Part shown: positions 7,622-59,790 of the stretch, in pieces
Numbering within the stretch: the first letter of the stretch is position 1
Layout of the letters: every line of letters starts with the position of its first letter
Virus record (IMG/VR): IMGVR_UViG_3300015360_000023
Coordinates: 1-64,000 of that record
Reading direction: 5' to 3' (one strand)
From: a virus
DNA: 64,000 bases
Position numbers and translations under genes: made by a program
Notes under the pieces: generated by a model
What the model saw: the letters and a program-made list of their open reading frames with translations, nothing else
Told to the model about the DNA's origin: nothing
Databases searched by the model: none

Positions 7622-9079
7622 ATGAAATTACGAGAACTACTTCAACAAATGCAAGCTGTGCAAAAAGAAATGAAGACCTCTCCGGCCTTCATTTGCGGAG
7701 GCACGCCTAGAGATCGATATCTCCAGCAAATTGAAAAGATCTCGGACGTTGATATTACAACTGGTGATAAGAGTATTCAACTGCTTTCTCAAGAGCTAAG
7801 TGCCGCTCTTGCTAAACAGTATAATATCGTTACCAAAACTTTCGATGATGGTCACAGCGCCCTTCATATTGGTAAGTTCAAAATGGATTTTTCATCCAAT
7901 TTTAACGTTGAGAATGTAGACGCAATTCTTGCAAAGATGGGCTTCAAAAACATTACTGAGATGAAGAAAGAAATGTTTAGTAGAGACTTTACTTGTAATG
8001 CCTTATTACTTTCTTTAGACTTAAGAATCCTACTAGATCCAACTGATAGGGCCCTTAAAGACATTAAAGAAAAGAAGATTAGAACTTGTTTATCTCCGGA
8101 ACTTACTCTTACCTCAAATAGAAATAGAGTAATTAGATCCGTTTATTTGGCATCCAAATTAGGATTTGATATTGATGAATCTATTATTGAATTTGTTAAA
8201 AGAAATCCTGGTAGCGTTAAAATTTCTACACCAACTTCATTAACTGAAAAACTTAATCAAGCTTTTTCAATGGATGGAGATAGAGCTGCCCATAACATTA
8301 CTAAGATGGGGCTTTGGGAAGAGATTCCTATTACTAATGTGGTTCAACCTTATTATTTGAAGAAGGGCCAGTTGGCATCTAAAAAAGCTTACTTTCAAGG
8401 TGGTGGCGGAGTTAACGAGCCAACACCAAAGAAGAAAAAATATAAGTCCGACACCGCTATTGTGGTTCAACCAAGATTCGAGGAGCCTCTTTATCGTAAC
8501 TACGATTTATACGATACTCCAGGCAAGCATAGCCCAGGGGCCGGTTGGCACTCCATGCAAAAGTATAAAAGCGTTGAGGAATTTCTAAAGGCAAAAAGGA
8601 AGGAACTAAAGGACAAGTACAAGGCCGATGACTCTTGGATTGAGGATTCTGGTAAAATTACCAAGAACAATCCAATGAAGGCTCGTGCCGAGTTACTTTC
8701 AAAAATAATTAAAATTGGAATCGATTTTCCAATTGACGATCAAATTGAGTCTACTATTGACCATGATGGTGATTTATCTAATCATTCTTTAGAGATGGGT
8801 ATGGCTATGCCGTTACCTCTAAATGATTCTGAGGGAAAGCCTCCGTCAGAATTGGACTTTGGCCATTTAGAAAATGGCGAGCCAATGAAAGCTGATGAAG
8901 ATTTAATCGATTTAATAACCGAGAAGTATTTGGCTCATGAAGCTAAAACTGAACAAAATGGATTACCAGATGGCTTTAATCATTCCGAAGAGGAAGACAT
9001 TGAACCTACTCAAATGAATCCAGAATATGGTACTTTAGGTCCGGAAAGTACTATGTATGAAGATAAATGGAATATTTAA
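7622..9079 (+). CDS. Nucleotidyltransferase (tRNA-NT/polyA polymerase head domain) fused to an unknown C-terminal region
   Basis: The product is 485 residues. Residues 20-185 carry the class II nucleotidyltransferase head: CGGTPRD at 25-31, DVD at 42-44 (metal-binding carboxylates), a third candidate Asp at about 89, RDFTCNA at 121-127, and an RVIRSVYLASKLGFDID helix at 169-185. In CCA-adding enzymes and poly(A) polymerases this domain transfers NMPs to RNA 3' ends. The usual RNA-binding tail is replaced by an unrelated 240-residue region. That region includes AYFQGGGGVNEPTP at 256-269, also found twice in the capsid protease-scaffold. Located in a structural operon; it may be virion-associated or a decayed enzyme. 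Substrate unknown. The ribosome site is weak. Confidence 0.75.
   Translation: MKLRELLQQMQAVQKEMKTSPAFICGGTPRDRYLQQIEKISDVDITTGDKSIQLLSQELSAALAKQYNIVTKTFDDGHSALHIGKFKMDFSSNFNVENVDAILAKMGFKNITEMKKEMFSRDFTCNALLLSLDLRILLDPTDRALKDIKEKKIRTCLSPELTLTSNRNRVIRSVYLASKLGFDIDESIIEFVKRNPGSVKISTPTSLTEKLNQAFSMDGDRAAHNITKMGLWEEIPITNVVQPYYLKKGQLASKKAYFQGGGGVNEPTPKKKKYKSDTAIVVQPRFEEPLYRNYDLYDTPGKHSPGAGWHSMQKYKSVEEFLKAKRKELKDKYKADDSWIEDSGKITKNNPMKARAELLSKIIKIGIDFPIDDQIESTIDHDGDLSNHSLEMGMAMPLPLNDSEGKPPSELDFGHLENGEPMKADEDLIDLITEKYLAHEAKTEQNGLPDGFNHSEEEDIEPTQMNPEYGTLGPESTMYEDKWNI
8338..8472 (+). repeat. In-frame 12-base direct repeats flanking the GGGGVNEPTP segment
   Basis: TGTGGTTCAACC occurs at 8338-8349 and again at 8461-8472, exactly 123 bases (41 codons) apart. 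Both encode VVQP. The segment between them carries the KKAYFQGGGGVNEPTP motif. This is what an in-frame module insertion or segment duplication would leave. Confidence 0.6.
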
Positions 9080-9142
9080 AACAACGGATATTGCTACATA
9101 TAATTACATAGATATGTGAAAAATCACTCCAGAGGTCCTAAA

Positions 9143-10084
9143 ATGTCACTACAATCAACAGCACAAGAATTAATCGTGGTAGATCCTGCTCAGGATTTTC
9201 CAATGGGTGATGCAGGAATGCAATTGGTTCCATTGGAAGTCGAAGACCCACATCCCGAACACCCTGCAACTGTTGAGTCTTTTGAACCTCTTGAGGTTGG
9301 TGAGCACGATCATGGCCAGCCAGAAGAAATTGAAATTGTTATGGAGTTACCGGGCGCCCCACCAGGCACCAAGGACCCAGAGCCAATTTTAGAAGTTCAT
9401 GAAGATGAGCCTAAGGAAGATAAGGGCGAGGCCCAAGACGAAGACCCAGCCAAGGCTGCAAAGAATGAAAAATGGGATTGGTCAAAGCGTGGTCCAACCG
9501 GATTCATTGCTTGGGTCAAAGAGCGTTGTGATGATGTTCCAAAGCACTCCGGTTACGACACCGCAGGTCTTGAGAGAGCTGTTGCCTACCTAGAGAGATT
9601 AGATAATGAAGTTTCTAAGGCCATGAGAATGGACTTGGATGGTGAACTAGATGCCAACCAAATTGAGAAGACTAGAGCTATCATCGATAATGGTATTGAG
9701 CGTTTGCACGACCGTCTTGATAAAGTTAAGAGCACCAAGAAGAAGAGCCGCAAGAAGAAGGGCTACGAATTGAATGAAGGTTTCCAAAAGGAAGCTCAAA
9801 AAATTACTGGTGTTAGTGGTGTTCTTGTAACCGTTCCTCTATTGATTTCAAGAATCGCAAGAGTCTGTGTTAACGGAATGGTTTCCGCAGGACATGATAT
9901 CGAAGATTTGTATGAGAGACAAGTTAAGTTCTACAAGCTTAATGACCGTGAACAAGCTGAAGTTATGCAGCTACTAGCTGACATGGGTTACTCCGTTCGT
10001 CAAGATAGAGGCTTCATGCCAGATGAGCAATTAGAAGTTTCTGATACTAATGGTATGGATTGGGCCGCGAACTACAAAGGATAA
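9143..10084 (+). CDS. Hypothetical protein with acidic N-terminus
   Basis: The product is 313 residues from the ATG at 9143, chosen because AGAGGT lies at 9131-9136; an in-frame GTG at 9116 has no such site. Residues 1-110 are strongly acidic and Pro-rich. They are followed by a WDWSKRGPTGFIAWVKER segment, a helical region, a very basic patch (STKKKSRKKKGYEL near 200) and a C-terminal helical domain. No family is recognised. The acidic-then-basic layout would suit interaction with both a basic partner and DNA. The sequence ACATATAATTACATAGATATG just upstream could hold a promoter. Confidence 0.6.
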   Translation: MSLQSTAQELIVVDPAQDFPMGDAGMQLVPLEVEDPHPEHPATVESFEPLEVGEHDHGQPEEIEIVMELPGAPPGTKDPEPILEVHEDEPKEDKGEAQDEDPAKAAKNEKWDWSKRGPTGFIAWVKERCDDVPKHSGYDTAGLERAVAYLERLDNEVSKAMRMDLDGELDANQIEKTRAIIDNGIERLHDRLDKVKSTKKKSRKKKGYELNEGFQKEAQKITGVSGVLVTVPLLISRIARVCVNGMVSAGHDIEDLYERQVKFYKLNDREQAEVMQLLADMGYSVRQDRGFMPDEQLEVSDTNGMDWAANYKG

Positions 10085-10086
10085 TC

Positions 10087-10740
10087 ATGTCAAAGTACAA
10101 CAGACATTCATCGGTTGTGTCAAGACAATCCGATTCGCCAATTGATGAAGATAGCTGGCTTCACAGATTCGAAAAGAGTCTAATGAAGGATGCTGTCCAA
10201 ACCAAGAAACAAGACTCTTCATTGTTTGAACAGATTAATACCATCATGAATGGAAAATCAAAATTCCCTTCTGTTGACGCTGCTGTTCAGGATATGAAAG
10301 AAAGAAGCGGCCTAACCGCTTATATTGAAAAGATCAATAAATCTTCCGAGGGAAACCTTCCAACTTCTAAGAAAATTGCCTCTGATAATCAGCAAGCAAT
10401 TGACAAGAAAGTTGAAATGACACCAATTGTTTTAACTAAACAGCCTCAGATCAAAAAAACTATTGAAAATTACATAAGGGACACTAAAGGCAATTTGCCA
10501 GTGCCAGCCATCATTGATAAGATTCGTTCTATCCATTCAAAAGATGTAACCGATTCTAAAGATTGGGACGATGATAAGCTTATCATTTTGGTAAGTAGAC
10601 TTAATCTATCAGCTAAGAAAGATAATCCTGGAACATTTCAGGACTACGGTAATTTAGGTTCTCGTGATACTGGTTCTGAAGCTGATATTGATCCATCAAA
10701 CACTGATGCTTTCTTTGCTTTAACTCCCGTTAAGCAATAA
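10087..10740 (+). CDS. Hypothetical protein, last gene before the terminase break
   Basis: The product is 217 residues from the ATG at 10087, which has AAGGA at 10077-10081. It starts two bases after the preceding stop. It is Lys/Ser/Asp-rich and helical, with a mid-section PQIKKTIENYIRDTKGNLPVPAIIDKIRSIHSKD that looks like a compact helical bundle, and a C-terminus that is probably disordered. No function is recognised. Its 3' end overlaps the 3' end of the antisense HNH gene by 11 bases, and a forward terminator lies about 125 bases downstream. Confidence 0.6.
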   Translation: MSKYNRHSSVVSRQSDSPIDEDSWLHRFEKSLMKDAVQTKKQDSSLFEQINTIMNGKSKFPSVDAAVQDMKERSGLTAYIEKINKSSEGNLPTSKKIASDNQQAIDKKVEMTPIVLTKQPQIKKTIENYIRDTKGNLPVPAIIDKIRSIHSKDVTDSKDWDDDKLIILVSRLNLSAKKDNPGTFQDYGNLGSRDTGSEADIDPSNTDAFFALTPVKQ

Positions 10741-11410
10741 CTTCTGGATCTGATAGTTTACGGCAATTGCAATTGTAGCATAGAACCTGTAAACCTAAAT
10801 GCATTGGGAAATTTTGTTTGATTAACCAGCGATACATTCTTACTCCAGTAAAACATTTAAGTTGACGGCGCTGAACAGCGCCGTCATTGTTTTTATGATC
10901 AATAGTTAATCGCTCAATTCTATCTTCTTTGCATTTTGTGCATTGATTGCCATAAGCTTCCATTACTTTCTTTTTATCACGAAGAGCGTATTTGTCTTTG
11001 TACACGACTCCTTTACTACAATTACAGTTGTAACAGAGTATTTGATATCCATCATGTTGTACTGGATTATTGTATAGCCATTCATACATATGATTTGAAA
11101 TTTGTTTTCTATGAGCGTTTCCGCCTCCAAATTTATGATCAAGTGTTAATTTATAATAGTCATCTTCTCCACATTGAGCGCACATATCTCCATAAGAAGC
11201 AATAATGGCACTTTTTCTACCACGATATCTGGCCAGTTGTTTTTTACCATAATTAGGCGTACTTAAATAGTATTTTTTATCTATTAATTTTCGACAAGAT
11301 TTACATGTATATCGACTTACTTTTTTATCATAAGTATTCCAATTATCTTCTATTAATTCTATACCACATTTATTACATGTTTTTAGACTGAGTTTTTCTG
11401 TTGAAGTCAT
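10730..11410 (-). CDS. HNH-type homing endonuclease with two tandem HNH-like domains
   Basis: The product is 226 residues and antisense to all neighbours. An N-terminal zinc ribbon (CNKC at 12-15, CKSC at 36-39) is followed by two copies of one domain, at about 73-134 and 153-217. Each copy has CxxC, a (T)LDH or (T)IDH catalytic-type motif, Arg/His-rich spacing, a YxWL segment and LCYNCNC. These match HNH nucleases, with the second CxxC closing the zinc site. Freestanding HNH genes beside terminase genes are common in phages and usually act in homing. Tandem duplication inside one chain is unusual. Its start is 26 bases from the terminase start, in a shared divergent gap. Second-domain ligands look intact. 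Confidence 0.85.
   Translation of the reverse strand: MTSTEKLSLKTCNKCGIELIEDNWNTYDKKVSRYTCKSCRKLIDKKYYLSTPNYGKKQLARYRGRKSAIIASYGDMCAQCGEDDYYKLTLDHKFGGGNAHRKQISNHMYEWLYNNPVQHDGYQILCYNCNCSKGVVYKDKYALRDKKKVMEAYGNQCTKCKEDRIERLTIDHKNNDGAVQRRQLKCFTGVRMYRWLIKQNFPMHLGLQVLCYNCNCRKLSDPEVIA
10864..10895 (+). terminator. Forward-strand intrinsic terminator inside the antisense HNH gene
   Basis: Two perfect 10-base arms, GACGGCGCTG (10864-10873) and CAGCGCCGTC (10876-10885), are separated by AA; the real loop would open by a base pair or two. They are followed by ATTGTTTTT. GC content is far above the surroundings. Read on the plus strand it would end the 1062-10740 operon, while on the minus strand it encodes NDGAVQRRQ of the HNH protein. 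Confidence 0.7.
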
Positions 11411-11415
11411 ATTAA

Positions 11416-11426
11416 TACATATATCG
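11416..11426. promoter_or_regulatory. Divergent promoter-like ATATAT element between HNH and terminase genes
   Basis: The 26-base gap between the HNH start (11410, minus) and terminase start (11437, plus) holds TACATATATCG. On the minus strand this reads CGATATATGTA, 16 bases from the HNH ATG, and resembles the TGATATA elements elsewhere. On the plus strand ACATATATCGT is 20 bases from the terminase ATG. Neither gene has a convincing ribosome site, so short-leader or leaderless messages are possible. Confidence 0.35.
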
Positions 11427-11436
11427 TCATTTCAGT

Positions 11437-13335
11437 ATGAGTAATATTAATTTAGAATCAAAAGAATTATTTCACAAATTACGTAAACAGCTATTAATGC
11501 TTGATCCCGTGATGTTTGTGGAGACCTATCTTACATTAGATGGCAAACCATTCAGACTAAGGGGCAACGGGTATAAACCTTTTTCAGAGGTATATCGTTA
11601 TATCGGTGTCAAAGCTTTAGAACCGAATTCAAAGCCGCTAATCATCGTCAAGGGACGTCAGGTCGGCGCTACTACGATGGCCAGTGCTCTTGAGATGTAT
11701 TTCATGGGCTGCGGACTCTTTGGTACTGGCGAGAAGCCACCGATGAGAGTTATCCACGCTTTCCCTCAATTGGAATTAGCTGCCGCTTATTCTAAAACCA
11801 AACTTAACCAAATTATCTCTACGGCTATGCCGGTAGAAACTGGCGAAGTTAAAAAAGCAGGCGCCAAGCCAAAGTCTCACATGCAGGCTCTGCTAGATCA
11901 ATCTACTGCTACAAATGACTCATTGCATTTCAAACAGTTCAGTGGCGGAAACCATTTGTGGGTTGAGTCTGTTGGACTTGACGGCGACCGCATCATGGGT
12001 CGTACCGCTGATATCCTTTTCTTTGATGAGGTTCAGAAAACGACTAGCATGGCTATCGGAAACTCTCTTAAGGTTTTAACTACCTCCAAGTATGGTAGAC
12101 CATCTAAGGGTGTTCAAGTTTACTTTGGAACTCCAAGACGTAAAGGTTCTGACTTCCATAAAATGTGGCAGTCCTCATCTCAGCAATTTTACTATTTGGG
12201 ATGCGAGAATTGTGAGAAGCATTTCCCTCTTTACACTCCCGGCTCTGATGAGTGGAAGTCAATTTGGGTTTACGGAATGATTGTTAAGTGTCCACATTGT
12301 GCACATGAACAAAACAAACTAGACGCTGCTGAACGTGGCAAATGGATTTCCTCTAAAGACCCTAACGACGAAGATTGTTTAATGGTTGGATTTCATCTTA
12401 ACCAGCTTTACATGCCTATGTTTACGCGTGAAGATATCGATGCTGAAATGCCGGGCAAGCATCCAATTAACACTGAACGTGTTTACATGAATGAAGTTTT
12501 AGGAGAATTCTTCCAAGGAGACTCTAGCCCTATTACTCCGGAAGAAATTAAAGACCAATGTGCTGATATTGGTCGTAAGTTCTCTGCTCGTATTGCGCCA
12601 GTCATCAATAAGGCAAGCCCTCAGATTGTTGTATTAGGTATCGACTATGGAGCTAGAGCTGATTTAGAGCAATTAGCTAATCCAGAAAAGATAAGAGTTA
12701 CAGGCCAGTCTTATAGTACGGCAGTTGTATTATCGGCTAAAGGGCCTAATCTGTTAAGTATTGAATTTGCAACTAAGTTCAAACGTAATGATATGGAAAG
12801 TAAAAAGGGTATCATTGATCAGCTTATGAGACAGTATAGCGTTCAATTGGCCGTTGGAGACATTGGATATTCAAACGACTTTTCAGCTATGTTACATAAT
12901 ATTTATGGAGATAAGTATTTAGTTTCTCGTGCTCATAATAAATTGAATGGACATATTAAATTTTCAGATGATGCATTTCCAAAAGAAATAGTTTTTGAAA
13001 GAGATTTTTATATTGGCGAACTTTATGAGCAATTAAAAAAGGGTCAAATTAAATTTCCATTTGGAGATTATGAGAAGATTGCTTGGTTAATTGATCATTG
13101 TTGTAGTATGGAAATTAAACCCACCGTATCAAGAATGGGCGGGGATCCTACTATTCATTATGTTAAAGGAAGCACTCCTAACGACGGATTTATGGCTTTA
13201 TTGAATGCATACCTGGCATATAAGTTCATCATTACGAGAGGGTTTACTAGTCATAATCCCTTAATTCAGCAGGCAAATTTCAAAGATCGCCATAAACCAT
13301 TGGTAATTGCTGGGTTTATACCTCGTAAGTTTTAA
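11437..13335 (+). CDS. terL: Terminase large subunit, GpA-type
   Basis: The product is 632 residues. The ATPase domain has GRQVGATT at 73-80 (Walker A type) and ADILFFDE at 191-198 (Walker B with catalytic Glu). A zinc-binding pair follows, CENC at 256-259 and CPHC at 285-288, as in the lambda GpA branch. The nuclease domain begins at VLGIDYGAR (about 399-407), with D403 the likely metal ligand. The enzyme pumps DNA into the prohead through the portal and cuts the concatemer. No convincing ribosome site precedes the ATG. The portal follows after a promoter-like element. A small subunit is not recognised with confidence. Confidence 0.95.
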   Translation: MSNINLESKELFHKLRKQLLMLDPVMFVETYLTLDGKPFRLRGNGYKPFSEVYRYIGVKALEPNSKPLIIVKGRQVGATTMASALEMYFMGCGLFGTGEKPPMRVIHAFPQLELAAAYSKTKLNQIISTAMPVETGEVKKAGAKPKSHMQALLDQSTATNDSLHFKQFSGGNHLWVESVGLDGDRIMGRTADILFFDEVQKTTSMAIGNSLKVLTTSKYGRPSKGVQVYFGTPRRKGSDFHKMWQSSSQQFYYLGCENCEKHFPLYTPGSDEWKSIWVYGMIVKCPHCAHEQNKLDAAERGKWISSKDPNDEDCLMVGFHLNQLYMPMFTREDIDAEMPGKHPINTERVYMNEVLGEFFQGDSSPITPEEIKDQCADIGRKFSARIAPVINKASPQIVVLGIDYGARADLEQLANPEKIRVTGQSYSTAVVLSAKGPNLLSIEFATKFKRNDMESKKGIIDQLMRQYSVQLAVGDIGYSNDFSAMLHNIYGDKYLVSRAHNKLNGHIKFSDDAFPKEIVFERDFYIGELYEQLKKGQIKFPFGDYEKIAWLIDHCCSMEIKPTVSRMGGDPTIHYVKGSTPNDGFMALLNAYLAYKFIITRGFTSHNPLIQQANFKDRHKPLVIAGFIPRKF

Positions 13336-13350
13336 CCAATTCCCTTTAAC

Positions 13351-13361
13351 TGATATATTAT
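13351..13361 (+). promoter_or_regulatory. TGATATA-type promoter-like element before portal
   Basis: TGATATATTAT lies in the 68-base gap between terminase and portal, 53 bases before the portal ATG. It matches the recurring element and would give a leader containing the GAGG ribosome site. Confidence 0.4.
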
Positions 13362-13403
13362 TAGTTACGTATAGAAGAGGGATGTGGAAACGAACGAGGA
13401 TTC

Positions 13404-15263
13404 ATGACAGTTCATAAAGCTCAAAAACTATGGGTAGGACCCTCTAACTCAGAATCATACTTAGGATCTAAGTCTGCTCTTCCACAAGTTAGCTCTTTAA
13501 TGTCAAAAAGCGTTTCAGAGATTAGGCGTCAAAATATCTCTGGTGAAGTAGAGGCTGGCCTTTTTAGAGATGGTTCCGGACCTACTCTTAAAGAAGATGG
13601 TGCAACCGCCAATGGCCGCGTTGTGTCTTCTGTTGGTCAACATAAATATGCGCAAGTTGTAAGCAGTGGCGGGGGAGGCTATCGTGGTGGCAACGGAGAT
13701 ACCGTTAAACAAACCCCAGAAGTCTATTCTCCTCTTTGGTTAAATTCCAATCTAAATCTTCCACGTGATAGAGCTACCATCAATGCCTGGTGTCGTAGCT
13801 TTTATGCTTTGAACCCTTTCGTTCATAATGCAATTAATTTACATAGCACTTATCCAATTAGCAAACTAAATATCAAGTGCCCTAATAAAGACATTGAAAA
13901 ATTCTTCAACGATATGATTGAAGAAATTGATTTAATGAATATTTGCGTTCAAATTGCGCAGGAATATTGGCTACTTGGTGAGTCTTTCGTTTACGCTGAG
14001 CTTGATGAAAGCCGTGGTAAGTGGAGTCGTCTACTTATTCAAAATCCAGACTACATGATTGTTAAGCGTACTGTTGTTGCTAATGAACCAATCATCATGT
14101 TGCGTCCTGACGAGAACCTAAAGAAGATTATCTTCTCTAATCGTCCAACCGATATCGAGCAACGTAAACAACTTAATAATCACATCATTGACTCTGTCAA
14201 GCGCGGTGAAAATATTCCATTGGATAATTTCCATGTATCGCATTTGGCTCGTAGAATCAGCCCTTACGAAATCAGAGGAACTGGTCTTCCAGTCTGTATT
14301 TTCCGTCAATTAATGTTATTTGACAAGCTTCGTGAATCCAAGTATGCACAAGCTGATAATATGATTAATCCATTAACTTTAGTTAAGATTGGTACCGATG
14401 GTCCTGATGGATTGCATCCAACTTTTGCTGACTTAGATGCATGGAGAAATGTATTTGAAGAAGCTCAATATGATAAGGATTTCAAGATCTTTACTCACGC
14501 TGGTATCGCTGTTGAGCGCGTAGGATACGGTCAGGGTATCTATGATATTTCTGGTGACATTACTCAGATCATTAAAGAAATTTATGTTGGCTTACAAGTT
14601 CCACCTGTTCTTATGGACGGGGGTGCTGATACTACTTATGCGAACGGCGGTGTGGCTTTGGACGTTCTAAGGCAACGTTACATGCAATTCCGTAACATGA
14701 TGAGCACGTGGCTTAAAAGAAAGATTTTCGCACCAATCTCTAAGATTCAAGGGTTCTACGATTACTCGGGCGGCGAGAAACAATTGATTGTTCCAGAAGT
14801 AGATTGGAACCACATGAGCTTGTTTGACGCAGGCGATTATATCAACAGCTTAGTTACTCTTACTCAGGGCGACGGCCCAGCCAAGAGAGCCTCTTTACAT
14901 ACCCTATATCGTTCTATGGGTCTAGAATTTGAGGATGAAGTCCGTAAAATGCGTAAAGAAGCTATTCAACAAGCAATTGATGCTAAGGAAAAAATAGCTT
15001 TAGGCGCTATGGATTTGAATGCTTTGAGAGCCCTGGATGAGGAAGATGAAATTCCAGAGCCAGAGCAACCAGCAGGTGGAGCGCCTCCAGGCGGTCCAGG
15101 AGCACCATTACCAGGAGAAGTCTCAGGTGGAGCACCACCTCCAGGTGGCGGTCTTCCTGGCCTAGATATGGGTGCACCTCCGGGTGGAGCGCCTCCACCT
15201 CCCCCTCCTACCCCTCCATCAGGTGGAGATGCAGGTGGTGGAGCACCCCCTCCCCCAGCATAA
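13404..15263 (+). CDS. Portal protein
   Basis: The product is 619 residues with GAGG upstream of the ATG. Residues about 105-560 match a portal layout: FYALNPFVHNAINLHSTY near the start, a wing/stem region containing VSHLARRISPYEIRGTGLPVCIFRQLMLFDKLRESKYAQADNMI in separate helices, then GDITQIIKEIYVGLQVPPVLMDG and a long helix RQRYMQFRNMMSTWLKRKIF. The dodecameric ring forms the head vertex for DNA entry and docks terminase. The last 75 residues are a Gly/Pro-rich disordered tail (GGAPPGGPGAPLPGE and similar). The first 100 residues are also poorly ordered, with a Gly run. It lies directly after terL, as expected. Confidence 0.92.
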   Translation: MTVHKAQKLWVGPSNSESYLGSKSALPQVSSLMSKSVSEIRRQNISGEVEAGLFRDGSGPTLKEDGATANGRVVSSVGQHKYAQVVSSGGGGYRGGNGDTVKQTPEVYSPLWLNSNLNLPRDRATINAWCRSFYALNPFVHNAINLHSTYPISKLNIKCPNKDIEKFFNDMIEEIDLMNICVQIAQEYWLLGESFVYAELDESRGKWSRLLIQNPDYMIVKRTVVANEPIIMLRPDENLKKIIFSNRPTDIEQRKQLNNHIIDSVKRGENIPLDNFHVSHLARRISPYEIRGTGLPVCIFRQLMLFDKLRESKYAQADNMINPLTLVKIGTDGPDGLHPTFADLDAWRNVFEEAQYDKDFKIFTHAGIAVERVGYGQGIYDISGDITQIIKEIYVGLQVPPVLMDGGADTTYANGGVALDVLRQRYMQFRNMMSTWLKRKIFAPISKIQGFYDYSGGEKQLIVPEVDWNHMSLFDAGDYINSLVTLTQGDGPAKRASLHTLYRSMGLEFEDEVRKMRKEAIQQAIDAKEKIALGAMDLNALRALDEEDEIPEPEQPAGGAPPGGPGAPLPGEVSGGAPPPGGGLPGLDMGAPPGGAPPPPPPTPPSGGDAGGGAPPPPA

Positions 15264-15327
15264 TTGAACGTATAACTTATGTATAATTGTGTATTTAGTT
15301 ACCGATTTTACATACTGAAGGGTTATC

Positions 15328-16692
15328 ATGGATAAATTTGCTCAAAGAAGAGGATTACTCAATAAACTACATGAGTGGGGAAACGTCAGCGGACGTTCCG
15401 CTGAGAAGTTTTTTAATCCAGAATTTCTTAAGGTTATGACCGCCTTACGCCTTCGTGACGACAATATTAGATCTATTGTTGCCGGCGAGGCTATTGGTGA
15501 TGGCAATCCTGGTAGAGATAAAACTAGTGTAAAGCAACTTTTAAAGTCTGCTAAATCAAATCTTAATAGAAGAGAATATATGCAAGGTGTCTCTGATTTA
15601 GGAAGATTTCATTCAAAATTGCTTGAAGTTGCTAATGAAATCGGCGCCCTTGACTCTAATGTAAATGAAGTTCATGAAGGTTTCTTATTTAAGCATTTAT
15701 CTGATAAAGGTAAAGATAATGAAACTCCAGAAGAATTTGAAAAGAGAACTAAGCACCTTGAGCACTTAAAAGATTTGAAGCAAAGATTTTCATCTGCACA
15801 AAAAAATGTAATGATTAAAGAGGCTAATATTGCTGATTTACTTGTTAATATGGGGACTCAACGTGGTAGAGCCTTAGCCGCTTGGGAAAAAAGATATAAG
15901 GGTCAAACTGCTGCTTTAAAAGCTGAAAGTGGTAAGCAAGTTGAAATTGCTGAAAAGATTTTAGAACTAACATTATCTCAACTTAAAGTAATGGCAACTC
16001 ATCGTGCCGGAAGAAATGTAGATGAGTACATGAGGGCTGCTAAGAAAATATCTGATAAATATGAACTTTATGATATGGAATTCAAAAAGTATTATACTAC
16101 TCATATTAAGGGTTTTTTGGAAAAGATGTTTCCAAAGGAAGTACTAGCTCCAGAGACGACTTCAGCTACTCCAGCAATTCCAGGCTCTCCAAAGGTCCCT
16201 GATTTGTCCTTGCCAGGTAGCCCAAAGTCTGATTCTCCTAAGGCCCCTGACATGGCATCTCCCTCTGTCCTTGGGCCTGTCGGAACGCCACCTACTATGC
16301 CTTCTAGATCAGAGCCTACTGTTTACCGCTCTCCCCTAGCTCCACCAGTAGCTCCAACTGCATTGCATGATACTTTACCTCCAAGTGCAGCTCCAGCTAC
16401 TATTCCAGCTCCAGACACTATTCCATCTCCTGCTCCAGATATGACTGTTGCACCACCAGAATCTGGTGTTGTGCCAACATCTAGAATGACTCCTGATGAG
16501 ATGAGGAACATGGAGCAACAACATGGCGTAGTTGCTAATCACAAAAATTTCTATAGCACTTTACAATCTATGTCTAATGAAAACCCTATAATTTTAAAGT
16601 CTTTCATTTCAACATATGCAAAGAAAATTGCTTCATCTGATCCAACAACCTCCATTCAACTTCTAAATGTAGTTAAGTCTATAAAGGGTTAA
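15328..16692 (+). CDS. Hypothetical helical virion protein with Pro-rich linker
   Basis: The product is 454 residues with AAGGG five bases before the ATG. Residues 1-270 are charged and helical. Residues about 275-400 form a Pro/Ser/Thr/Ala-rich linker full of APxT and PSP repeats. A compact C-terminal segment (about 400-454, NHKNFYSTLQSMSNENPIIL) follows. No domain is recognised. The gap upstream holds ATGTATAATTGT (15280-15291), a plausible -10 box. It is three bases upstream of the transglycosylase-like gene, so the two are probably co-expressed. A head-inner or adaptor role is only a guess. Confidence 0.6.
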   Translation: MDKFAQRRGLLNKLHEWGNVSGRSAEKFFNPEFLKVMTALRLRDDNIRSIVAGEAIGDGNPGRDKTSVKQLLKSAKSNLNRREYMQGVSDLGRFHSKLLEVANEIGALDSNVNEVHEGFLFKHLSDKGKDNETPEEFEKRTKHLEHLKDLKQRFSSAQKNVMIKEANIADLLVNMGTQRGRALAAWEKRYKGQTAALKAESGKQVEIAEKILELTLSQLKVMATHRAGRNVDEYMRAAKKISDKYELYDMEFKKYYTTHIKGFLEKMFPKEVLAPETTSATPAIPGSPKVPDLSLPGSPKSDSPKAPDMASPSVLGPVGTPPTMPSRSEPTVYRSPLAPPVAPTALHDTLPPSAAPATIPAPDTIPSPAPDMTVAPPESGVVPTSRMTPDEMRNMEQQHGVVANHKNFYSTLQSMSNENPIILKSFISTYAKKIASSDPTTSIQLLNVVKSIKG

Positions 16693-16694
16693 TC

Positions 16695-17906
16695 ATGGCT
16701 AACTTGGGCGCAAACTTTTACCCAAAGCTAGTACAGGTTTCCTCTGAAGTGGGAATGAAGCCTGAGGATTTGATTGCCGTTATGGTTTCCGAATCTGGCA
16801 TGGATCCTGGTGCTGTTGAAAAAAAATTCAAGGGTTCGGGACTTGTTGGCTTTATGCCTGACACATTAAAAGGCCTTGGCTTCAAAGGAAGCTGGGAGGA
16901 CTTTAGTAAATTGTCTGGTGAAGAACAGCTAGACTGGCTTAAGAAACTTGTAAACGGTTATAAGAGTGGAAATGGTGGTAAATCATTTAACTCTGCTGCC
17001 CAGTATTATACTGCTAATTTGTGGCCCGTCGCCCTGCAATTACCTGGTGTTCGTCAACAGAATCCGGGAGCCGCATTTATTGAATCCAATCCTGAGACGG
17101 TTACTGATCCTAAGACTGGTAAAAAGTGGAGTAAAAAATACTTTGATATCGGAATTAAGATTAGTCCCGAAATGGAAAGCAACGCCTATAAATATAATCC
17201 TTTATTTGATAGAGATAAAAAAGGTGCCATTACTTATGGTGATATGATGAAGCAAGTTGAAATTAACAAACGCAGCCCAATCTACCAAAAGGCTTTGGTT
17301 GCTATGCAAAGTGCTACTAATTATACACCAGGTAAGGGAGGCCCAGCAATGGTTCAAGATAAAGAGAACGAAGGTTTAGAGAACAAGTATTTAGCTTTAA
17401 CTAAGCAACATACGGGTGGCCCAACAGCTAGTCCAACCTCTGCTCCTGCCCAACCAACTGGAGAGAGCGCTAGCTGGGACGCTAAGCTTACTAGTTTTCT
17501 ACAACAAATTGCAGCTTCCGAAAAATCTAATAAGAAACTATATAAAGAGTTCCTTCCTTCTAACAATATAACTATTTTAGTTAAAGCTAATTTCACAGAT
17601 GCCGTCGAGTTCTCTCGTGTATTATGTACTGCATTAGATGAAGAGTTATTGGCTAATGCTTATACTCATGTTGATGGAAATGATGTAGAAGTTCAATGTG
17701 TTATTCCGGGACCAGCTCAGGAATGTTTTGATGCGGTAGCTCAATTGACGTTTGCCCTTACTGGTGCTTTTAAGAAAGCTACGGCAAAGATAGGCGGAAT
17801 TGATGTTAAAGCTCAATTCCTTATGAATAAACAGTCATCTTATCAGAAAATCAGTCTTAGTACTGCAACTACTCAATACAGGAAATTCCTGCTAAAATTT
17901 ATTTAA
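16695..17906 (+). CDS. Lytic transglycosylase-like virion protein
   Basis: The product is 403 residues. Residues 10-130 fit a degenerate SLT/goose-lysozyme-like fold: LIAVMVSESGMDPGAV with likely catalytic Glu33, then GSGLVGFMPDTLKGLG (the usual A-x-G-L-x-Q-F-M-P motif), and AQYYTANLWP. Such enzymes cleave the MurNAc-GlcNAc bond to open the cell wall during DNA injection or release. A Thr/Pro-rich linker at about 240-260 leads to an independent C-terminal alpha/beta domain (260-403) that is not recognised. There is no signal peptide, and its place between portal and capsid genes suggests a virion-borne enzyme rather than an endolysin. AAAGGG precedes the ATG. Confidence 0.75.
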   Translation: MANLGANFYPKLVQVSSEVGMKPEDLIAVMVSESGMDPGAVEKKFKGSGLVGFMPDTLKGLGFKGSWEDFSKLSGEEQLDWLKKLVNGYKSGNGGKSFNSAAQYYTANLWPVALQLPGVRQQNPGAAFIESNPETVTDPKTGKKWSKKYFDIGIKISPEMESNAYKYNPLFDRDKKGAITYGDMMKQVEINKRSPIYQKALVAMQSATNYTPGKGGPAMVQDKENEGLENKYLALTKQHTGGPTASPTSAPAQPTGESASWDAKLTSFLQQIAASEKSNKKLYKEFLPSNNITILVKANFTDAVEFSRVLCTALDEELLANAYTHVDGNDVEVQCVIPGPAQECFDAVAQLTFALTGAFKKATAKIGGIDVKAQFLMNKQSSYQKISLSTATTQYRKFLLKFI

Positions 17907-17915
17907 GGAAATGAA

Positions 17916-18311
17916 ATGGTAACCGAACAATCAGTTTTAGATGCAGTTGAAGATTGTAATAAGGACAGAACAAGAACTTTTGCTGAGTTTATTGCAACTA
18001 TCTTTAAAGATAAGTTCGTTGAAATTTACCTTGGTGACTCTTATGAAGAAGTAAGTTTAGAGCAAACTTCTATGGCCTATCCGGCTGTGTTTTGCGGACA
18101 AGTTGTAAGTGCGTACAGAGAGTGCTTGGTTCTTAGGGGAATTTATGTTGATGCTAAGAATAAAGAAACCAGTCTTGGTAATTTAGTATTCATTAGTGAA
18201 AGAGCTATTAGAGGACTTAATGAAATTAATGGTGATGGTACCATGGAAGATATGTTTTTAAGAAGCAAAGAGTCTGTAACCGTTTTCAATAAACTAATTA
18301 GTAAGAAATAA
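17916..18311 (+). CDS. Hypothetical protein
   Basis: The product is 131 residues. The ATG at 17916 has AAGGA at 17905-17909. It is an acidic alpha/beta sequence with two Cys residues in the middle (VFCGQVVSAYRECLVL). No family is recognised. It sits nine bases after the transglycosylase-like gene and six before the next gene. This tight packing indicates one operon with the head genes, where small connector or head-completion proteins are often found; that role is not shown. Confidence 0.55.
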   Translation: MVTEQSVLDAVEDCNKDRTRTFAEFIATIFKDKFVEIYLGDSYEEVSLEQTSMAYPAVFCGQVVSAYRECLVLRGIYVDAKNKETSLGNLVFISERAIRGLNEINGDGTMEDMFLRSKESVTVFNKLISKK

Positions 18312-18317
18312 TTTATC

Positions 18318-18959
18318 ATGTACACTACCGATCAAATTTTACAACTAGCTACCAGTTATGAACATAGCTGTTTGGGCTTGGTTAAAATTGCTCGACCATC
18401 AAAGTCGAAGGACGATCGTGTATCTGAATATGAAGTCGAAGATAAAGATATTATCGACCTTACTAAGGCTGCTGATTTTTCTTATTCGGCTATTATGAGA
18501 GAGTTAAGACAACATGCTTCTAAAGAACAAGTAAGGGAGTTTCTTGTTCTTTTCAAAAAGGAATTTGATAAGGCAGTTAAGTTAAAACTACAGAAACCAG
18601 AGAAGGTTGCTTTACAAAACTCAGTTGTTAAATTCGGTAAAAAAAACAAGTTAAAAGTTAATAAGAAGATTATTAAGAATGCCGCTGTCAGTGAACTAGG
18701 AGATCCGATGTTGGTAGGAAAGTACCTAGCAGATATCGTTAGATTCACTTTGAATAGAATTCCGTCTGATAAAAGACAAAACGCTATTGATAAGTTGAGG
18801 CAAAAATTTTATACTTTTAATGCTAATGAATTAGCTAAGAAGAACTTGCCTCCGACTTCGGCTATTGGACAATCTATTACATTCGTTAAGCATGTTTTAT
18901 TTAATCAGGATGCTACTTATGTCCGCGAGGTTCTCAATAACATAGTGAGACATTTATAA
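18318..18959 (+). CDS. Hypothetical Lys-rich helical protein
   Basis: The product is 213 residues, basic in its centre (KLKLQKPEKVALQNSVVKFGKKNKLKVNKK, split by hydrophobics) and helical throughout. It may be nucleic-acid binding by charge, but no motif is recognised. It is separated by one base from the phosphatase-like gene downstream. The ribosome site is weak, so translation may be coupled to the upstream gene. Confidence 0.55.
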   Translation: MYTTDQILQLATSYEHSCLGLVKIARPSKSKDDRVSEYEVEDKDIIDLTKAADFSYSAIMRELRQHASKEQVREFLVLFKKEFDKAVKLKLQKPEKVALQNSVVKFGKKNKLKVNKKIIKNAAVSELGDPMLVGKYLADIVRFTLNRIPSDKRQNAIDKLRQKFYTFNANELAKKNLPPTSAIGQSITFVKHVLFNQDATYVREVLNNIVRHL

Positions 18960-18960
18960 A

Positions 18961-19725
18961 ATGATTTACAGGTTTCGTAAAGTAACCGATGAATTGTTTC
19001 GTGGTAGTGCTCCTTCCCCTAATGATGTCGCTAAATTAAAGAGCCATGTAGGGATTAAAAAAATCGTTAGTTTGGATGGTCCTGCCGCCGCACGCATTAC
19101 TAATATCTGCAAGGTTTTAGATATTGAGCACGTTGTTATTCCTATTGGATTTCCAGATGTACTTGAGCCAGTCTTAGACTTTTTGAAATATGATTTGAAA
19201 AAATTATTTCTAAAAGGTGGACCTACTTATGTTCACTGCGCAGCGGGCAAGGACAGAACTGGTTTAGCTGTAGCTCTAGTCCAATGCAAGTATTTAGGCA
19301 AATCTCCGGAAGATGCTGTCGAAGAGGCCAAGTCACTAGGGTTTGGTTTAGATGTAGATCCTAAAGCCATCTCTATTTTCGAGAAGGCAATCAGGTCATG
19401 CAAGCCATCGAAAGATAACAATGACGCTGATATAGTCTCCAATGAAAGAGAATATATTGGAGACAATAGGGACTCATTTTTGGATGAGGGGCATCAAGGA
19501 TCTTTCGCTCCATTTAATGCCACCCGTCAATTTCCGATGGATCCTGTTTATAATTTCATAATGGATCAGTCTCCGACCCGCGAAAATTATCATTCTAGTC
19601 GGTCAATAAAAGAGCATGATCCTAAAGAAGATGATGTAGTTCCAATGGTTGGCGTCTTTGATAACGATGCTGGTGGAAGAGGTTTCGGACCTACAGAAAA
19701 CGCAGGAGGATTCATTTATGATTAA
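18961..19725 (+). CDS. Dual-specificity/tyrosine phosphatase-like protein
   Basis: The product is 254 residues. Residues 1-150 match a cysteine-dependent phosphatase: the P-loop VHCAAGKDRTG at 91-101 has the CX5R signature with nucleophile C93 and R99. IVSLDG near 35-40 is a typical earlier strand, and PIGFPD near 61-66 may supply the general acid. This family removes phosphate from Tyr/Ser/Thr, lipids or RNA 5' ends. The C-terminal 100 residues are disordered and acidic with several Tyr. No signal peptide is present. Its placement inside the head-gene operon is unusual. The next gene starts inside its last codons behind AGGAGGA. Confidence 0.82.
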   Translation: MIYRFRKVTDELFRGSAPSPNDVAKLKSHVGIKKIVSLDGPAAARITNICKVLDIEHVVIPIGFPDVLEPVLDFLKYDLKKLFLKGGPTYVHCAAGKDRTGLAVALVQCKYLGKSPEDAVEEAKSLGFGLDVDPKAISIFEKAIRSCKPSKDNNDADIVSNEREYIGDNRDSFLDEGHQGSFAPFNATRQFPMDPVYNFIMDQSPTRENYHSSRSIKEHDPKEDDVVPMVGVFDNDAGGRGFGPTENAGGFIYD

Positions 19726-20371
19726 GAAGGCTTACGCAGTACAAATGACCTATGACGTGTCTGATGATGAAAAACAACAGGCTCAGAGGGCTCTTTTGTT
19801 TTTTGGTCACACTAATAAGCTGCTTGAAATGGCCTCAGATCATCTTGATATCATGAAAACTCCTTTCAAGGATAATCCTGAAATGGACCCTAAAGAGGTT
19901 GTTAAGGCTCGTGCTGCCATCAGAAGGTTTAGAGATAAGTCTGTTGAAAATTTTAATGTCTTCAAAAAAGAAGCTTTTAAATGTGTCAATGTAATGCAAC
20001 CTTTCTCTACTGATACTCAAACTCTTAAGTTAATGAAGTCTTTTATTACATCTATTGATGGGTTAGAAACTAAGGTTAATCAATTCTCAGAACTGTTTAA
20101 TGACTTGGAGTCTAAATCGTTCTCACAAGATATTGTAAAAAACATTGAAGGAATTCAGGAAGAGTGTAAAGATCTATCTGAAATCATTGATGAAAGAATT
20201 AAGAGCCATATTCAGAGTAATATCCTAGCTACTAGCTGGGTAGATAATGTCAGTAATGACCTTCAAATGCAAATTGAAGAGAAGACCCCGCTTATTATGG
20301 ATCTTTTCAATAAACGACAAGACAATCTAAATGAAGCAATTAAGGAGAGAACATCACAAGAAGGTAACTAA
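19718..20371 (+). CDS. Hypothetical helical protein
   Basis: The product is 217 residues. The start at 19718 is chosen over a longer in-frame one because AGGAGGA lies at 19704-19710; it overlaps the phosphatase stop by eight bases, so translation is probably coupled. The sequence is almost wholly helical with heptad-like hydrophobics (LKLMKSFITSIDGLETKVNQF). No family is recognised. Coupling to the phosphatase suggests related expression, but nothing shows a shared function. Confidence 0.6.
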   Translation: MIKKAYAVQMTYDVSDDEKQQAQRALLFFGHTNKLLEMASDHLDIMKTPFKDNPEMDPKEVVKARAAIRRFRDKSVENFNVFKKEAFKCVNVMQPFSTDTQTLKLMKSFITSIDGLETKVNQFSELFNDLESKSFSQDIVKNIEGIQEECKDLSEIIDERIKSHIQSNILATSWVDNVSNDLQMQIEEKTPLIMDLFNKRQDNLNEAIKERTSQEGN

Positions 20372-20489
20372 AAGCTTCATAATAATGGGAATATTAACAT
20401 ATATGTTTGAAGTTACTGCCCGAAATGAAATTTTGTGGCAATAATCCATTATAATTGAAGTGTATTGTGGTGTCTCCAATGGAGAGCGA

Positions 20490-20645
20490 ATGTTTATCAA
20501 ACACGGTGACGGAAAAATATTATCAGTTGTTGAGGACGAAGAGATGACTGAGCAGCAAAAAAAGTCTGCCAGAGATCTATCCAAAAAGGTCGTCAAACAA
20601 TCTGAAGAGACTGATACTTCAGAAGTGAAGAAATCAGGGAGCTAA
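20490..20645 (+). CDS. Small acidic/basic protein before the protease-scaffold
   Basis: The product is 51 residues. The ATG at 20490 has GGAG at 20481-20484, which is better placed than the longer in-frame start at 20460. It has a beta-like start (MFIKHGDGKILSVVEDEE) and a Lys/Ser/Glu-rich tail (KKSARDLSKKVVKQSEE). It lies three bases before the protease-scaffold gene. The 118-base gap upstream contains TATAAT at 20450-20455. Function unknown; small proteins in this position may help core assembly. Confidence 0.6.
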   Translation: MFIKHGDGKILSVVEDEEMTEQQKKSARDLSKKVVKQSEETDTSEVKKSGS

Positions 20646-20648
20646 TAC

Positions 20649-23600
20649 ATGACTTTCATTAAACTAGGCGAAGCACAAGAGATTAAATTGGAGGACATTG
20701 AGTCCTGCCTTCCTGCTGTTAGTGCTGAAATTCTAGAAAACTTTAGGAAGACGGCTGCTGGCCTTAAAAAGGTCGCACCAAAAGCTGAAGACTTTCTTTA
20801 CTTCTCCGCTGTTATGATGCATGCCGCAGAAGCATCTGCACTTAATGATGATGGAACACAAAAGCTAACTGTCAGAGGCGAACCTGTTAAGGTTGGTTGG
20901 GATAAGAGCGGTGGAACATTACGTTGGATGAGTAATGACCCTAGCATTAAACCTTATAAGAATTCTAATGGAGATATATTTCCAGAGGAAGAACTTGTTA
21001 AGGCACATAAAAAGTGGGTTCATAAGCCTCTTTGCATAGATCATAAATCCAGTTCGGTTGATCATGTTAGAGGCTTTATTGTTGATACCTATTACGATCG
21101 CAATCTAAAAAGAGTAATTGCTCTTTGTGCGCTTGATAAAGCAGGCTACCCTCAATTAGCTAGACAAATTTCTACTGGAGTTTCTAACTGCGTATCCATG
21201 GGTACGGCTGTTGGAAAGGCAATCTGTTCTGATTGTGCCAGAGTGGCTCGTGCAGAAGCTGATTTCTGCGACCACATGAGACGCAAGAGTTGCTACGGTG
21301 AAATCAACGTAGACCTTAACCCTCTTGAATTATCTATTGTAGTTAATGGAGCAGATCCAAAGGCTAATATTAAACACATTATTGCTGCTGCAAATACTCT
21401 TAATACTTATGTTGAAAATAAGCAAAAAGAAATTAAGAAGTTAGCAGAAAGCTTTACAGCTAATATTGATTTTACAACTGGTGATAGTCAAGCCGATAAT
21501 AAGGTTACTCACGTTTCAGTTACATCTAAAGATATTGACACTTTTAAGAAAGATGTCGAAAAGGCTATTGTAGACTTCCAGAGTCTGCAATCTTCATTAA
21601 ATGAAGAAAATATGCAAGAACATGGGAATGATCTTGCATCTAATCAACTGTCGGGTGTTGAAAACGCTTCGGCCGATGATTCTGGATTGGCTCCCCCACA
21701 CGCAAGATATGCATCCTATGAAGTAGGGGCGAATGCTATCGACGAACTTCGAGCGGTTATGAAAGCCATCGAGACCAAGTTGGGCCAAACGCAAGTAAGC
21801 TTGGATAAGTTAGCAAACACTTCTACAACGATACAAGAGGAAAATATGTCAGGTACAAATAACATTAACAAGCAGGGTTATTACCAAGGTGCGGGTGGCG
21901 TAAATGAGCCAACCCCAGGTCAAGCTAAGTATCCGAAGGACCCTCTTAATGAGCAACTTCGTGAAAAAGAGGATAGACAAATGGTAGGTCAATCTCCATT
22001 TCCAGAAGTAGGATCAGTTGAGGGTATGCACCCATCTCCAGATTCCGCTGAGACCTCTGATGAACTACAACGCAAGAAGATGCTTGCCCGTGCTGAATCT
22101 GAAGAGAGAGCAGCTCGTCGTACCGCAATCGTTAACCTTGCAAAGGCCGCTCTTGAAAACAAGACTGCTTACTTCCAGGGTGGTGGTGGCGTAAATGAGC
22201 CAACTCCAGGTAAAGTAAAGTATCCTGCTGATAAGGGTCACATGGCTTATGAAGATGATAAGCACATGCATGGCAAGAAGCCATTCCCAGGTGTTGGGCC
22301 AGTTGATGGCGCATACCCAGAAGATTTAAAGAAGAAGGAACTTCTAAGCAGAGCTGCTCTAAGAGCTAAGTTCGTTAGAGTTGCCAACGAAGAAGGAACC
22401 GCAAACCTAGGTAAGAGTGCTTGGGAAGTTTACAGCGGTGACAAGCTTCTATTAACTGCCTCCGTAGATGAACTATCCGGTGGACGTTCTGAAGTTCTAT
22501 ACGACAGCATTGCAACCAAAGACTTCGGCGCCAAGTTACTTGAAAAGGTAAAGGCTCACGGTGTTGATAAGATTCGCTCTCTTGTAAAGAGTGCACAAGG
22601 CGCTCCTCCAGCAGAAGCAGCCCCACCAGCCGACGCAGGCGCACCACCAGCCGATGTAGCTCCTCCAGCAGAAGATACTGGCAAGTCTGGTGATCCAAAG
22701 GAAACCCTTCTTGATACTGCCGAAAAGGCAAGAGACCTTGTCTCTGATGTTGTTGAAGGTGTTAGAGCCCTTACTGGCGAACAAGCCGAAATGGGCGCTC
22801 CAGATGATGCAGCTCCAGAGATGGGCGCGGCAGCTTCTTTCAGCACTGCTACTCTTAATAACTTAAGAAGAGAACTTAACGGAACACTTACCACTGCTAT
22901 GAAAGAGTGCGCTGCTAACCTAAACGACCACGTTCAAGAACTTGAAATGGTTGCCGGTCTTTATGACAAGGGCGCAGTCACTAATTCTAATGAAGCATTT
23001 GTTGGTGCAATCGTTGAGGACGCGCTTACTGAAGCCAGAGCATCTATTGCCGATGGTTTCAAGCTTATGACCGCATTCGTTAAGTATGCTCGCGGTACCA
23101 AAGCAATTGTAAAACGTGCCGAAATTGAGGCCGAACTTGAGGCATTAGCTGAAGGAGAAAACATGACAGGCGAACTAGACGCCAACAATGGCGACGACTT
23201 AATGGCCATGATCTCTGACACCAACTCCGATTTGGATGCTGTCAAGAGTCTTATGGCAGACGATGAAGGACTATTAGACAATGGTGATGAGACTGAAGGA
23301 CTTCTTGCTGATGACGACAACGACATCAAAGCAGGTGACCTTAAGCCAGAAACTGAACTACCAGAGTTTATGAACCAAGCTTCTTACGATAGCCGTTCCG
23401 GACGTGCCGCACTTCGTGCCAAGCTAGCCGCTGACGCTCTTGGTAAGCAAGATGACGGTGAGTCTCAAGATATGTCTCACGCTAAGTTTAGCGATATGCT
23501 AGGCGAAGCTGACAAGCTTGCTGACGGACAAACTGACTTAGATGTCAAGCCATCTGATAACCTAGGCAAGGTTGAAACCCTACCAGAAGTTAACAAGGCT

Positions 23601-24152
23601 ATGATGGATCTTGCAAAAGCTCCACCTAAGGTCCGTAAGGAAGCAGAAGCTATCTACAGACTTGTTTCTGAAGGTAAGCTTGATCCAGCAGACCTAGATG
23701 CTCTTGTATCAGAAGGTTTGGATAAGGATGCAGTTTCTTACTACAAGAAGTACTTTGCTCAAACCGAAGGTGGCTCTGAATTCGCTAGCGAATTAGTCAA
23801 GGAACACGTTAAGGCTCAACTTGAAGCAGAGCTTAACAAGTACAGAGTCAAGCTAGCTCGTTCTTACGAACTTGCTTATGACATGGTTGACCGTGGTTTG
23901 TGCGGCGGAGACAGAGGCGCAGTATCTAACCAAGTTGATGAGATTATGCAATTCAACGATGAGTCATTCGATTCTCTAAAGAGAGTTGTCGCAAGACACC
24001 CAGTAACTAACCTTCGTAAGGAGGGCGGACGTATGCCACAAGTTGGTGTAATCGGTTCTGGTGACCTTAACACTCCATCTTCACAGTCCGAAGGTGATAT
24101 GCTTGCACAATTAACAGCAGCATTTTCTAAGACTTCCAAGAGAAGCTTCTAA
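20649..24152 (+). CDS. Capsid maturation protease fused to scaffold protein
   Basis: The product is 1167 residues with GGGAG before the ATG. Residues about 45-245 look like a phage prohead protease of the herpes-assemblin-type fold: CIDHKSSSVDHVRGF (H132), GVSNCVSMGT (candidate Ser183 or Ser179), and a Cys/His insert C193-x2-C196-x10-C207-x-H209, followed by NPLELSIVVNGAD. Residues 400-600 hold two tandem copies of a roughly 100-residue unit beginning Y(Y/F)QG(A/G)GGVNEPTPG. The rest is helical, acidic and Ala/Pro-rich, as expected of a scaffold that the protease removes during maturation. Two in-frame internal starts could make scaffold-only products. Codon choice suggests high expression. 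Confidence 0.75.
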   Translation: MTFIKLGEAQEIKLEDIESCLPAVSAEILENFRKTAAGLKKVAPKAEDFLYFSAVMMHAAEASALNDDGTQKLTVRGEPVKVGWDKSGGTLRWMSNDPSIKPYKNSNGDIFPEEELVKAHKKWVHKPLCIDHKSSSVDHVRGFIVDTYYDRNLKRVIALCALDKAGYPQLARQISTGVSNCVSMGTAVGKAICSDCARVARAEADFCDHMRRKSCYGEINVDLNPLELSIVVNGADPKANIKHIIAAANTLNTYVENKQKEIKKLAESFTANIDFTTGDSQADNKVTHVSVTSKDIDTFKKDVEKAIVDFQSLQSSLNEENMQEHGNDLASNQLSGVENASADDSGLAPPHARYASYEVGANAIDELRAVMKAIETKLGQTQVSLDKLANTSTTIQEENMSGTNNINKQGYYQGAGGVNEPTPGQAKYPKDPLNEQLREKEDRQMVGQSPFPEVGSVEGMHPSPDSAETSDELQRKKMLARAESEERAARRTAIVNLAKAALENKTAYFQGGGGVNEPTPGKVKYPADKGHMAYEDDKHMHGKKPFPGVGPVDGAYPEDLKKKELLSRAALRAKFVRVANEEGTANLGKSAWEVYSGDKLLLTASVDELSGGRSEVLYDSIATKDFGAKLLEKVKAHGVDKIRSLVKSAQGAPPAEAAPPADAGAPPADVAPPAEDTGKSGDPKETLLDTAEKARDLVSDVVEGVRALTGEQAEMGAPDDAAPEMGAAASFSTATLNNLRRELNGTLTTAMKECAANLNDHVQELEMVAGLYDKGAVTNSNEAFVGAIVEDALTEARASIADGFKLMTAFVKYARGTKAIVKRAEIEAELEALAEGENMTGELDANNGDDLMAMISDTNSDLDAVKSLMADDEGLLDNGDETEGLLADDDNDIKAGDLKPETELPEFMNQASYDSRSGRAALRAKLAADALGKQDDGESQDMSHAKFSDMLGEADKLADGQTDLDVKPSDNLGKVETLPEVNKAMMDLAKAPPKVRKEAEAIYRLVSEGKLDPADLDALVSEGLDKDAVSYYKKYFAQTEGGSEFASELVKEHVKAQLEAELNKYRVKLARSYELAYDMVDRGLCGGDRGAVSNQVDEIMQFNDESFDSLKRVVARHPVTNLRKEGGRMPQVGVIGSGDLNTPSSQSEGDMLAQLTAAFSKTSKRSF
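21837..21848 (+). promoter_or_regulatory. Internal in-frame ribosome site and start (scaffold product 1)
   Basis: GAGG at 21837-21840 lies five bases before an in-frame ATG at 21846 (Met400). The product would begin MSGTNNINKQGYYQGAGG and consist of the scaffold part without the protease. The site coincides with the boundary between the coiled linker and the first 100-residue repeat. Confidence 0.5.
21879..22380 (+). repeat. Tandem protein repeat in scaffold (two units of roughly 100 codons)
   Basis: Unit 1 starts at 21879 (YYQGAGGVNEPTPG) and unit 2 at 22170 (YFQGGGGVNEPTPG). After the opening motif both share KYP-D, PFP-VG-V-G--P, and a Leu/Lys/Arg-Ala-rich helix. Sequence divergence shows that the duplication is old. 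Confidence 0.75.
23152..23165 (+). promoter_or_regulatory. Internal in-frame ribosome site and start (scaffold product 2)
   Basis: AAGGAG at 23152-23157 stands five bases before an in-frame ATG at 23163 (Met839), a stronger match than at many true gene starts here. The product would begin MTGELDANNGDDL and be a 329-residue acidic helical scaffold fragment. Confidence 0.5.
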
Positions 24153-59770: not shown

Positions 59771-59790
59771 AATGTGAATTTATTCACATT
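59771..59790. repeat. 20-base inverted repeat between two reverse genes
   Basis: AATGTGAAT and ATTCACATT (9-base perfect arms, TT spacer) overlap the stop of the 2H phosphoesterase gene and lie six bases before the downstream ATG. It could be an operator or an RNA hairpin that controls translation of the downstream gene, which lacks a clear ribosome site. Confidence 0.6.

Follow-up and report, generated by a model that had tools for sequence, protein, structure and literature searches.

In phage lambda (C/Nu3) and in the herpesviruses (UL26/UL26.5), protease and scaffold are encoded by one open reading frame (ORF), and an internal in-frame start yields the scaffold alone. In phage T4, the capsid-targeting sequence (CTS) is a short N-terminal peptide of the internal proteins and of Alt (PMC3012670, PMC9958956, PMC5694885). 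In the giant phages SPN3US and phiKZ, N-terminal propeptides are a proposed means of directing proteins into the prohead (PMC5694885); unlike the short motif described here, these mostly exceed 100 residues and are removed. The head module of Bacillus phage G comprises gp14 (portal), gp19 (protease), gp21 and gp27 (capsid).

Here we analyzed a window of 64,000 nucleotides, positions 1–64,000 of the 202,609-base (202.6 kb) IMG/VR record IMGVR_UViG_3300015360_000023, in which two genes share a peptide motif with the consensus (A/G)Y(F/Y/W)xG(G/A)GGVNEPTPxxxKY. The features concerned are as follows.

7622–9079, + strand: fused ORF of 485 aa, a PolyA_pol-type nucleotidyltransferase domain (approximately aa 1–243; Pfam PF01743, E = 1.7e-11) followed by the motif protein ("TAIL")
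8372–8374, + strand: possible remnant internal start TTG (M-A-S-K-K-A-Y-F-Q...), with an SD-like GAAGGG at 8362–8367; compare the MSVNKKAYFQ starts of relatives
8387–8428, + strand: motif in the fused protein, AYFQGGGGVNEPTP; the common block runs on to KY, at about 8443
20649–24152, + strand: head maturation protease and scaffold in one ORF of 1167 aa; phrog_18299, homology to phage G gp19
21837–21841, + strand: internal Shine-Dalgarno (SD) sequence GAGGA, 4 nt ahead of the nested ATG
21846–24152, + strand: putative nested in-frame scaffold of 768 aa, starting MSGTNNINKQGYYQGAGGVNEPTP; start and SD conserved, with phage G gp21 as the separate-gene counterpart
21876–21917, + strand: motif copy 1 of the protease-scaffold, GYYQGAGGVNEPTP; residues 11–24 of the nested scaffold
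22167–22208, + strand: motif copy 2 of the protease-scaffold, AYFQGGGGVNEPTP (peptide of this copy, KTAYFQGGGGVNEPTPGKVKYP); 97 aa after copy 1, opening the second repeat unit

The three occurrences, found by six-frame translation, are the only ones in the whole record (3 forward matches, 0 reverse and 0 for a reversed-pattern control), and a motif HMM run over the remaining pieces of the record found no additional copy. The preliminary description had the three places right, and its position in the fused protein was exact; its first scaffold copy (21879–21920) was shifted by one codon, and its end at 22211 for the second took in the following Gly. The block common to all copies, K-x-(A/G)-Y-(F/Y/W)-x-G-(G/A)-G-G-V-N-E-P-T-P-x-x-x-K-Y-x-x-(D/E), spans 24 residues rather than the 14 first recognized, and each scaffold copy opens one unit of a repeat. 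At the level of sequence, the 14-residue identity between the two proteins is far beyond chance.

The identity of the protease was established by a profile match to the phrog_18299 head maturation protease (E = 3.2e-12, aa 105–212). Within this gene, GAGGA precedes an in-frame ATG at 21846, and motif copy 1 begins 10 residues downstream. Both elements are conserved: the nested-start Met is ATG in 43 of 44 rows of the alignment of relatives, and the Glu codon that forms the SD sequence (codon 397) is GAG in 37 of 40 relatives (92.5%), compared with a median GAG use of 23% at 43 conserved Glu columns of the same alignment, the next best of which reached 62%. At the next Glu codon, GAA is used almost throughout (synonymous identity 0.998). 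We also assembled an independent set selected by the protease domain and not by the motif, comprising 80 fetched loci, with the ORF recovered in 65 and missed by the script in 15. In 63 of these 65, the motif was preceded by an internal Met and its SD-like core, a count that arises partly by construction since the script took any of four SD cores. The informative part is that the core was GAGGA every time, in 50 of the 50 distinct loci having an internal Met and an SD-like core, with a spacer of 4 nt in 48. In the two loci that were missed (L296 and L308), EENMSG is visible by eye and an altered aromatic pair falls outside the pattern.

The gene thus contains what defines a nested gene, an internal in-frame start with a conserved ribosome binding site, and we infer that a 768-aa scaffold is made from it. 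The start at 21846 places copy 1 close to the N-terminus of this putative protein, whose scaffold function is suggested by gene position and by distant similarity to phage G gp21. The arrangement resembles lambda C/Nu3 and herpesvirus UL26/UL26.5 in combining protease and scaffold in one ORF with an internal in-frame start, which is deduced here from codon conservation only; UL26.5, unlike the present case, uses a nested transcript. Phage G gp19 is a homologous protease (34% identity over approximately 203 aa), gp21 matches the C-terminal region of the nested product (E = 1.8e-6, the sole match of 281 ORFs), and the capsid protein is, by eye, visibly similar to that of the window. Unlike in the window, however, gp19 and the scaffold-like gp21 are separate genes, and no motif occurs within the 24.6 kb region of phage G examined.

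The window also holds genes of other kinds. A protein tyrosine phosphatase-like gene (18961–19725; PF13350, E = 8e-8) lies between portal and protease, and a patatin-like phospholipase gene (47872–48732; PF01734, E = 2.5e-29) lies downstream of the capsid gene. Three probably mobile genes stand amid the structural genes (107–799, 27198–27971 and 49134–49466): a pair of GIY-YIG genes, of which one has NUMOD3, and an HNH gene. On the − strand, 59789–60403 encodes a member of the 2'-5' RNA ligase superfamily that weakly matches the anti-CBASS protein Acb1 (E = 7e-6, just below the Pfam cut-off).

The second motif-bearing gene sits upstream of the large terminase. Its nucleotidyltransferase head carries the motifs GGTPRD and DVD, in which the GG, the R and the two Asp residues do not vary across A2 and A3, and is not a full-length CCA-adding enzyme, as PF01743 alone was matched with no further Pfam domain. 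A second, full-length tRNA nucleotidyltransferase (PF01743, PF12627, PF13735) is encoded on the − strand at 36842–38083, soon after the capsid gene. The fusion is lineage-specific; besides the window, a minority of relatives have it. In most relatives, nucleotidyltransferase and motif protein are separate, overlapping genes, the ATG of the motif protein typically lying within the last codons of the nucleotidyltransferase; in relatives collected independently of the motif, the motif typically follows the start codon of its protein by a few residues (for example, MSVNKKAYFQGGGGVNEPTP). Given that copy 1 lies near the nested start and that the nucleotidyltransferase is usually separate, the two head-module proteins typically carry the motif as an N-terminal element.

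Among 80 loci sampled by way of the nucleotidyltransferase, with forms called by pattern, we counted 49 long, 9 short, 1 NTPTP, 20 without a motif and a single locus lacking an ORF; of the 20, several are inserted or mis-picked neighboring ORFs, and others are motif proteins that truly lack the motif. The latter occur in L211, L238, L244, L158 and L159, among others, and in these the motif is dispensable. In L178, L180 and L203, the usual starting place of the motif protein is taken by another ORF (MPLNKFILWHTNNIGKK..., which includes the stretch CKCSCGK), perhaps an insertion. An insert (NNCFFYAAI...HFWVE...DPTASQY) in the motif protein of L040 (2584–4644) looks, by eye, similar to a cysteine-peptidase-like fold, with no Pfam family assigned.

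The T4 CTS fits as the nearest functional analogue of the motif, although we do not claim membership in the CTS family. As in T4, a short peptide stands at or near the N-terminus of several otherwise different head-region proteins, here the motif protein and the putative nested scaffold, and what follows the peptide differs in length and makeup from protein to protein, in the present phages with J-domain or nucleotidyltransferase fusions among them. Unlike in T4, the scaffold itself bears the peptide. The likeness is one of layout, protease removal and targeting being features of T4.

A degenerate DNA scan of IMG/VR placed the motif in at least 118 stretches of contigs from uncultivated viruses, the longest 481 kb, and almost without exception in the same two genes; four of these stretches contain one unrelated short ORF without YxQG and were rejected as chance matches. 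Across 17 large records (44–481 kb) searched with up to two mismatches, each had 1–4 matches with 0 control matches, frequently with one copy approximately 13.5–14 kb upstream of the two in the protease-scaffold. In these records and that of the window, only the scaffold and the motif protein carry the motif. We found no match to the exact pattern in 84,980 GTDB species genomes, none in PLSDB plasmids and none among the cultured phages of INPHARED, where the best matches (E = 7–8) fell in tail assembly chaperone genes; a literature search for VNEPTP returned no paper. Judged by sequence, the motif holders are a large, widespread group of uncultivated giant phages.

The motif is also selected as protein, not as DNA, as judged from codon variation. 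Eleven peptides in the motif protein derive from 24 distinct DNA versions of the motif, and in the scaffold the third positions of the motif codons downstream of the nested start vary freely. Since synonymous positions vary, there is little sign of gene conversion or of a DNA-level element; the two genes had a third-position identity of 0.41 within genomes versus 0.37 between them, a value reached by 87 of 2000 permutations, so that a weak within-genome effect or common codon habits may contribute. Both proteins occur with the same three variant forms, GGGGVNEPTP (long), GTEEPTP and NGxxxNPGTPTP (NTPTP), the last lacking the Glu while keeping the rest of the motif. With forms called by pattern in 30 genomes having both genes (motif protein/scaffold), 17 were long/long, 1 long/short, 1 short/long and 11 not-long/short, such that long accompanies long in 17 of 18 genomes and the short scaffold form is found in 11 of the 12 others. 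We do not claim co-evolution of the forms, as the pairs that are independent (2 supported, 5 in all) do not reach significance.

Together, the protein-level conservation in many phages, the confinement to two genes and the absence from bacterial, plasmid and cultured-phage sets give good support to the earlier suggestion of a functional tag in two head-module proteins. They leave next to no room for a generic flexible linker common to both proteins by happenstance. The motif is Gly-rich, contains Pro and is predicted to be disordered, as a linker would be, but it has the fixed non-linker residues Y, N, E, K and Y, and the preliminary description would have abandoned its proposal had the motif been common in host proteins, among which the GTDB search found none. 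Chance or a linker was thus ruled out by the distribution across the record, its relatives and the databases. In AlphaFold models the motif lies in segments predicted to be disordered (pLDDT approximately 30–45 in both proteins), within models of low confidence overall (mean pLDDT 45 and 56), that of the nucleotidyltransferase-motif protein fusion (NT-TAIL) being too poor to interpret. The scaffold model contains a small predicted alpha/beta domain at residues 571–605, after the motif copies; Foldseek with the full-length model gave no match at E ≤ 0.001, and no binding partner or pocket for the motif peptide is visible in the predicted models.

Of the three readings originally offered for the tag, docking or prohead targeting best accounts for the data, while that of a site recognized or cut by the prohead protease (for example at VNE/P) and lost at maturation has been weakened and now appears improbable. 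Such a site would suit a motif that adjoins the protease in the same polyprotein, and in T4 the gp21 protease trims targeting peptides from the N-termini of head proteins (PMC5694885, PMC7411985). The motif is nevertheless missing from the major capsid protein of the window, the NTPTP form dispenses with the Glu and is otherwise intact, and conservation runs beyond the putative cut to KY and D/E. A Pro directly after the cleavage residue disfavors serine proteases, which makes the Glu-Pro of the motif unfavorable as a target. A special case of docking, in which the motif is a scaffold-scaffold contact that inserts into a pocket of the scaffold itself and is borrowed by the motif protein to enter the core, is unlikely but deserves consideration, given the two copies per scaffold, each opening a repeat unit, and the predicted domain at residues 571–605. 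Set against it, no pocket was found, and the model places the peptide on no domain with confidence.

The earlier proposal that the tag serves to carry the nucleotidyltransferase into the head, to be delivered together with the DNA, is for the most part unsupported, and we consider it very doubtful. It draws on the single ORF of the window and several relatives, including the fused L049, L101 and L040, which have no ATG immediately ahead of the motif, and on one lineage (L025, 8688–11063; L206, 3001–5349) with a DnaJ-like segment between the two parts (PF00226, E = 2e-6 to 4e-6, just under the Pfam cut-off in the full ORF). In most relatives, however, the nucleotidyltransferase has its own gene, whose end overlaps the motif protein's start codon; on a 32-row tree, parsimony has the fusion state change approximately four times; and even in the window the TTG at 8372 could, speculatively, serve as a remnant start of the motif protein. 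Delivery of the nucleotidyltransferase is therefore possible only in lineages with the fusion and is unsupported as a general case.

On balance, we lean toward the motif being a short linear docking peptide common to two late head-module proteins, which would bind the same partner and so place the second protein in or on the prohead core. The scaffold, translated from the internal start of the protease-scaffold gene, would display the motif near its N-terminus along with a second copy, and the motif protein, next to or fused with the nucleotidyltransferase, would display it once. Both would bind one partner through the peptide during prohead assembly; candidates are the portal, the major capsid protein, the protease or a scaffold domain. 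By extension, and much more tentatively, one portable peptide might act as an address code for the prohead that a single partner reads, with cargo such as the nucleotidyltransferase or J-domain joined to the motif protein in different lineages, amounting to a natural cargo-loading system. The group of phages concerned is widespread, with no cultured member found, and the peptide is defined, so that binding is directly testable with purified proteins. Protein sorting into the heads of giant phages is poorly understood, and the present analysis puts forward one particular candidate scaffold for which the start is defined.
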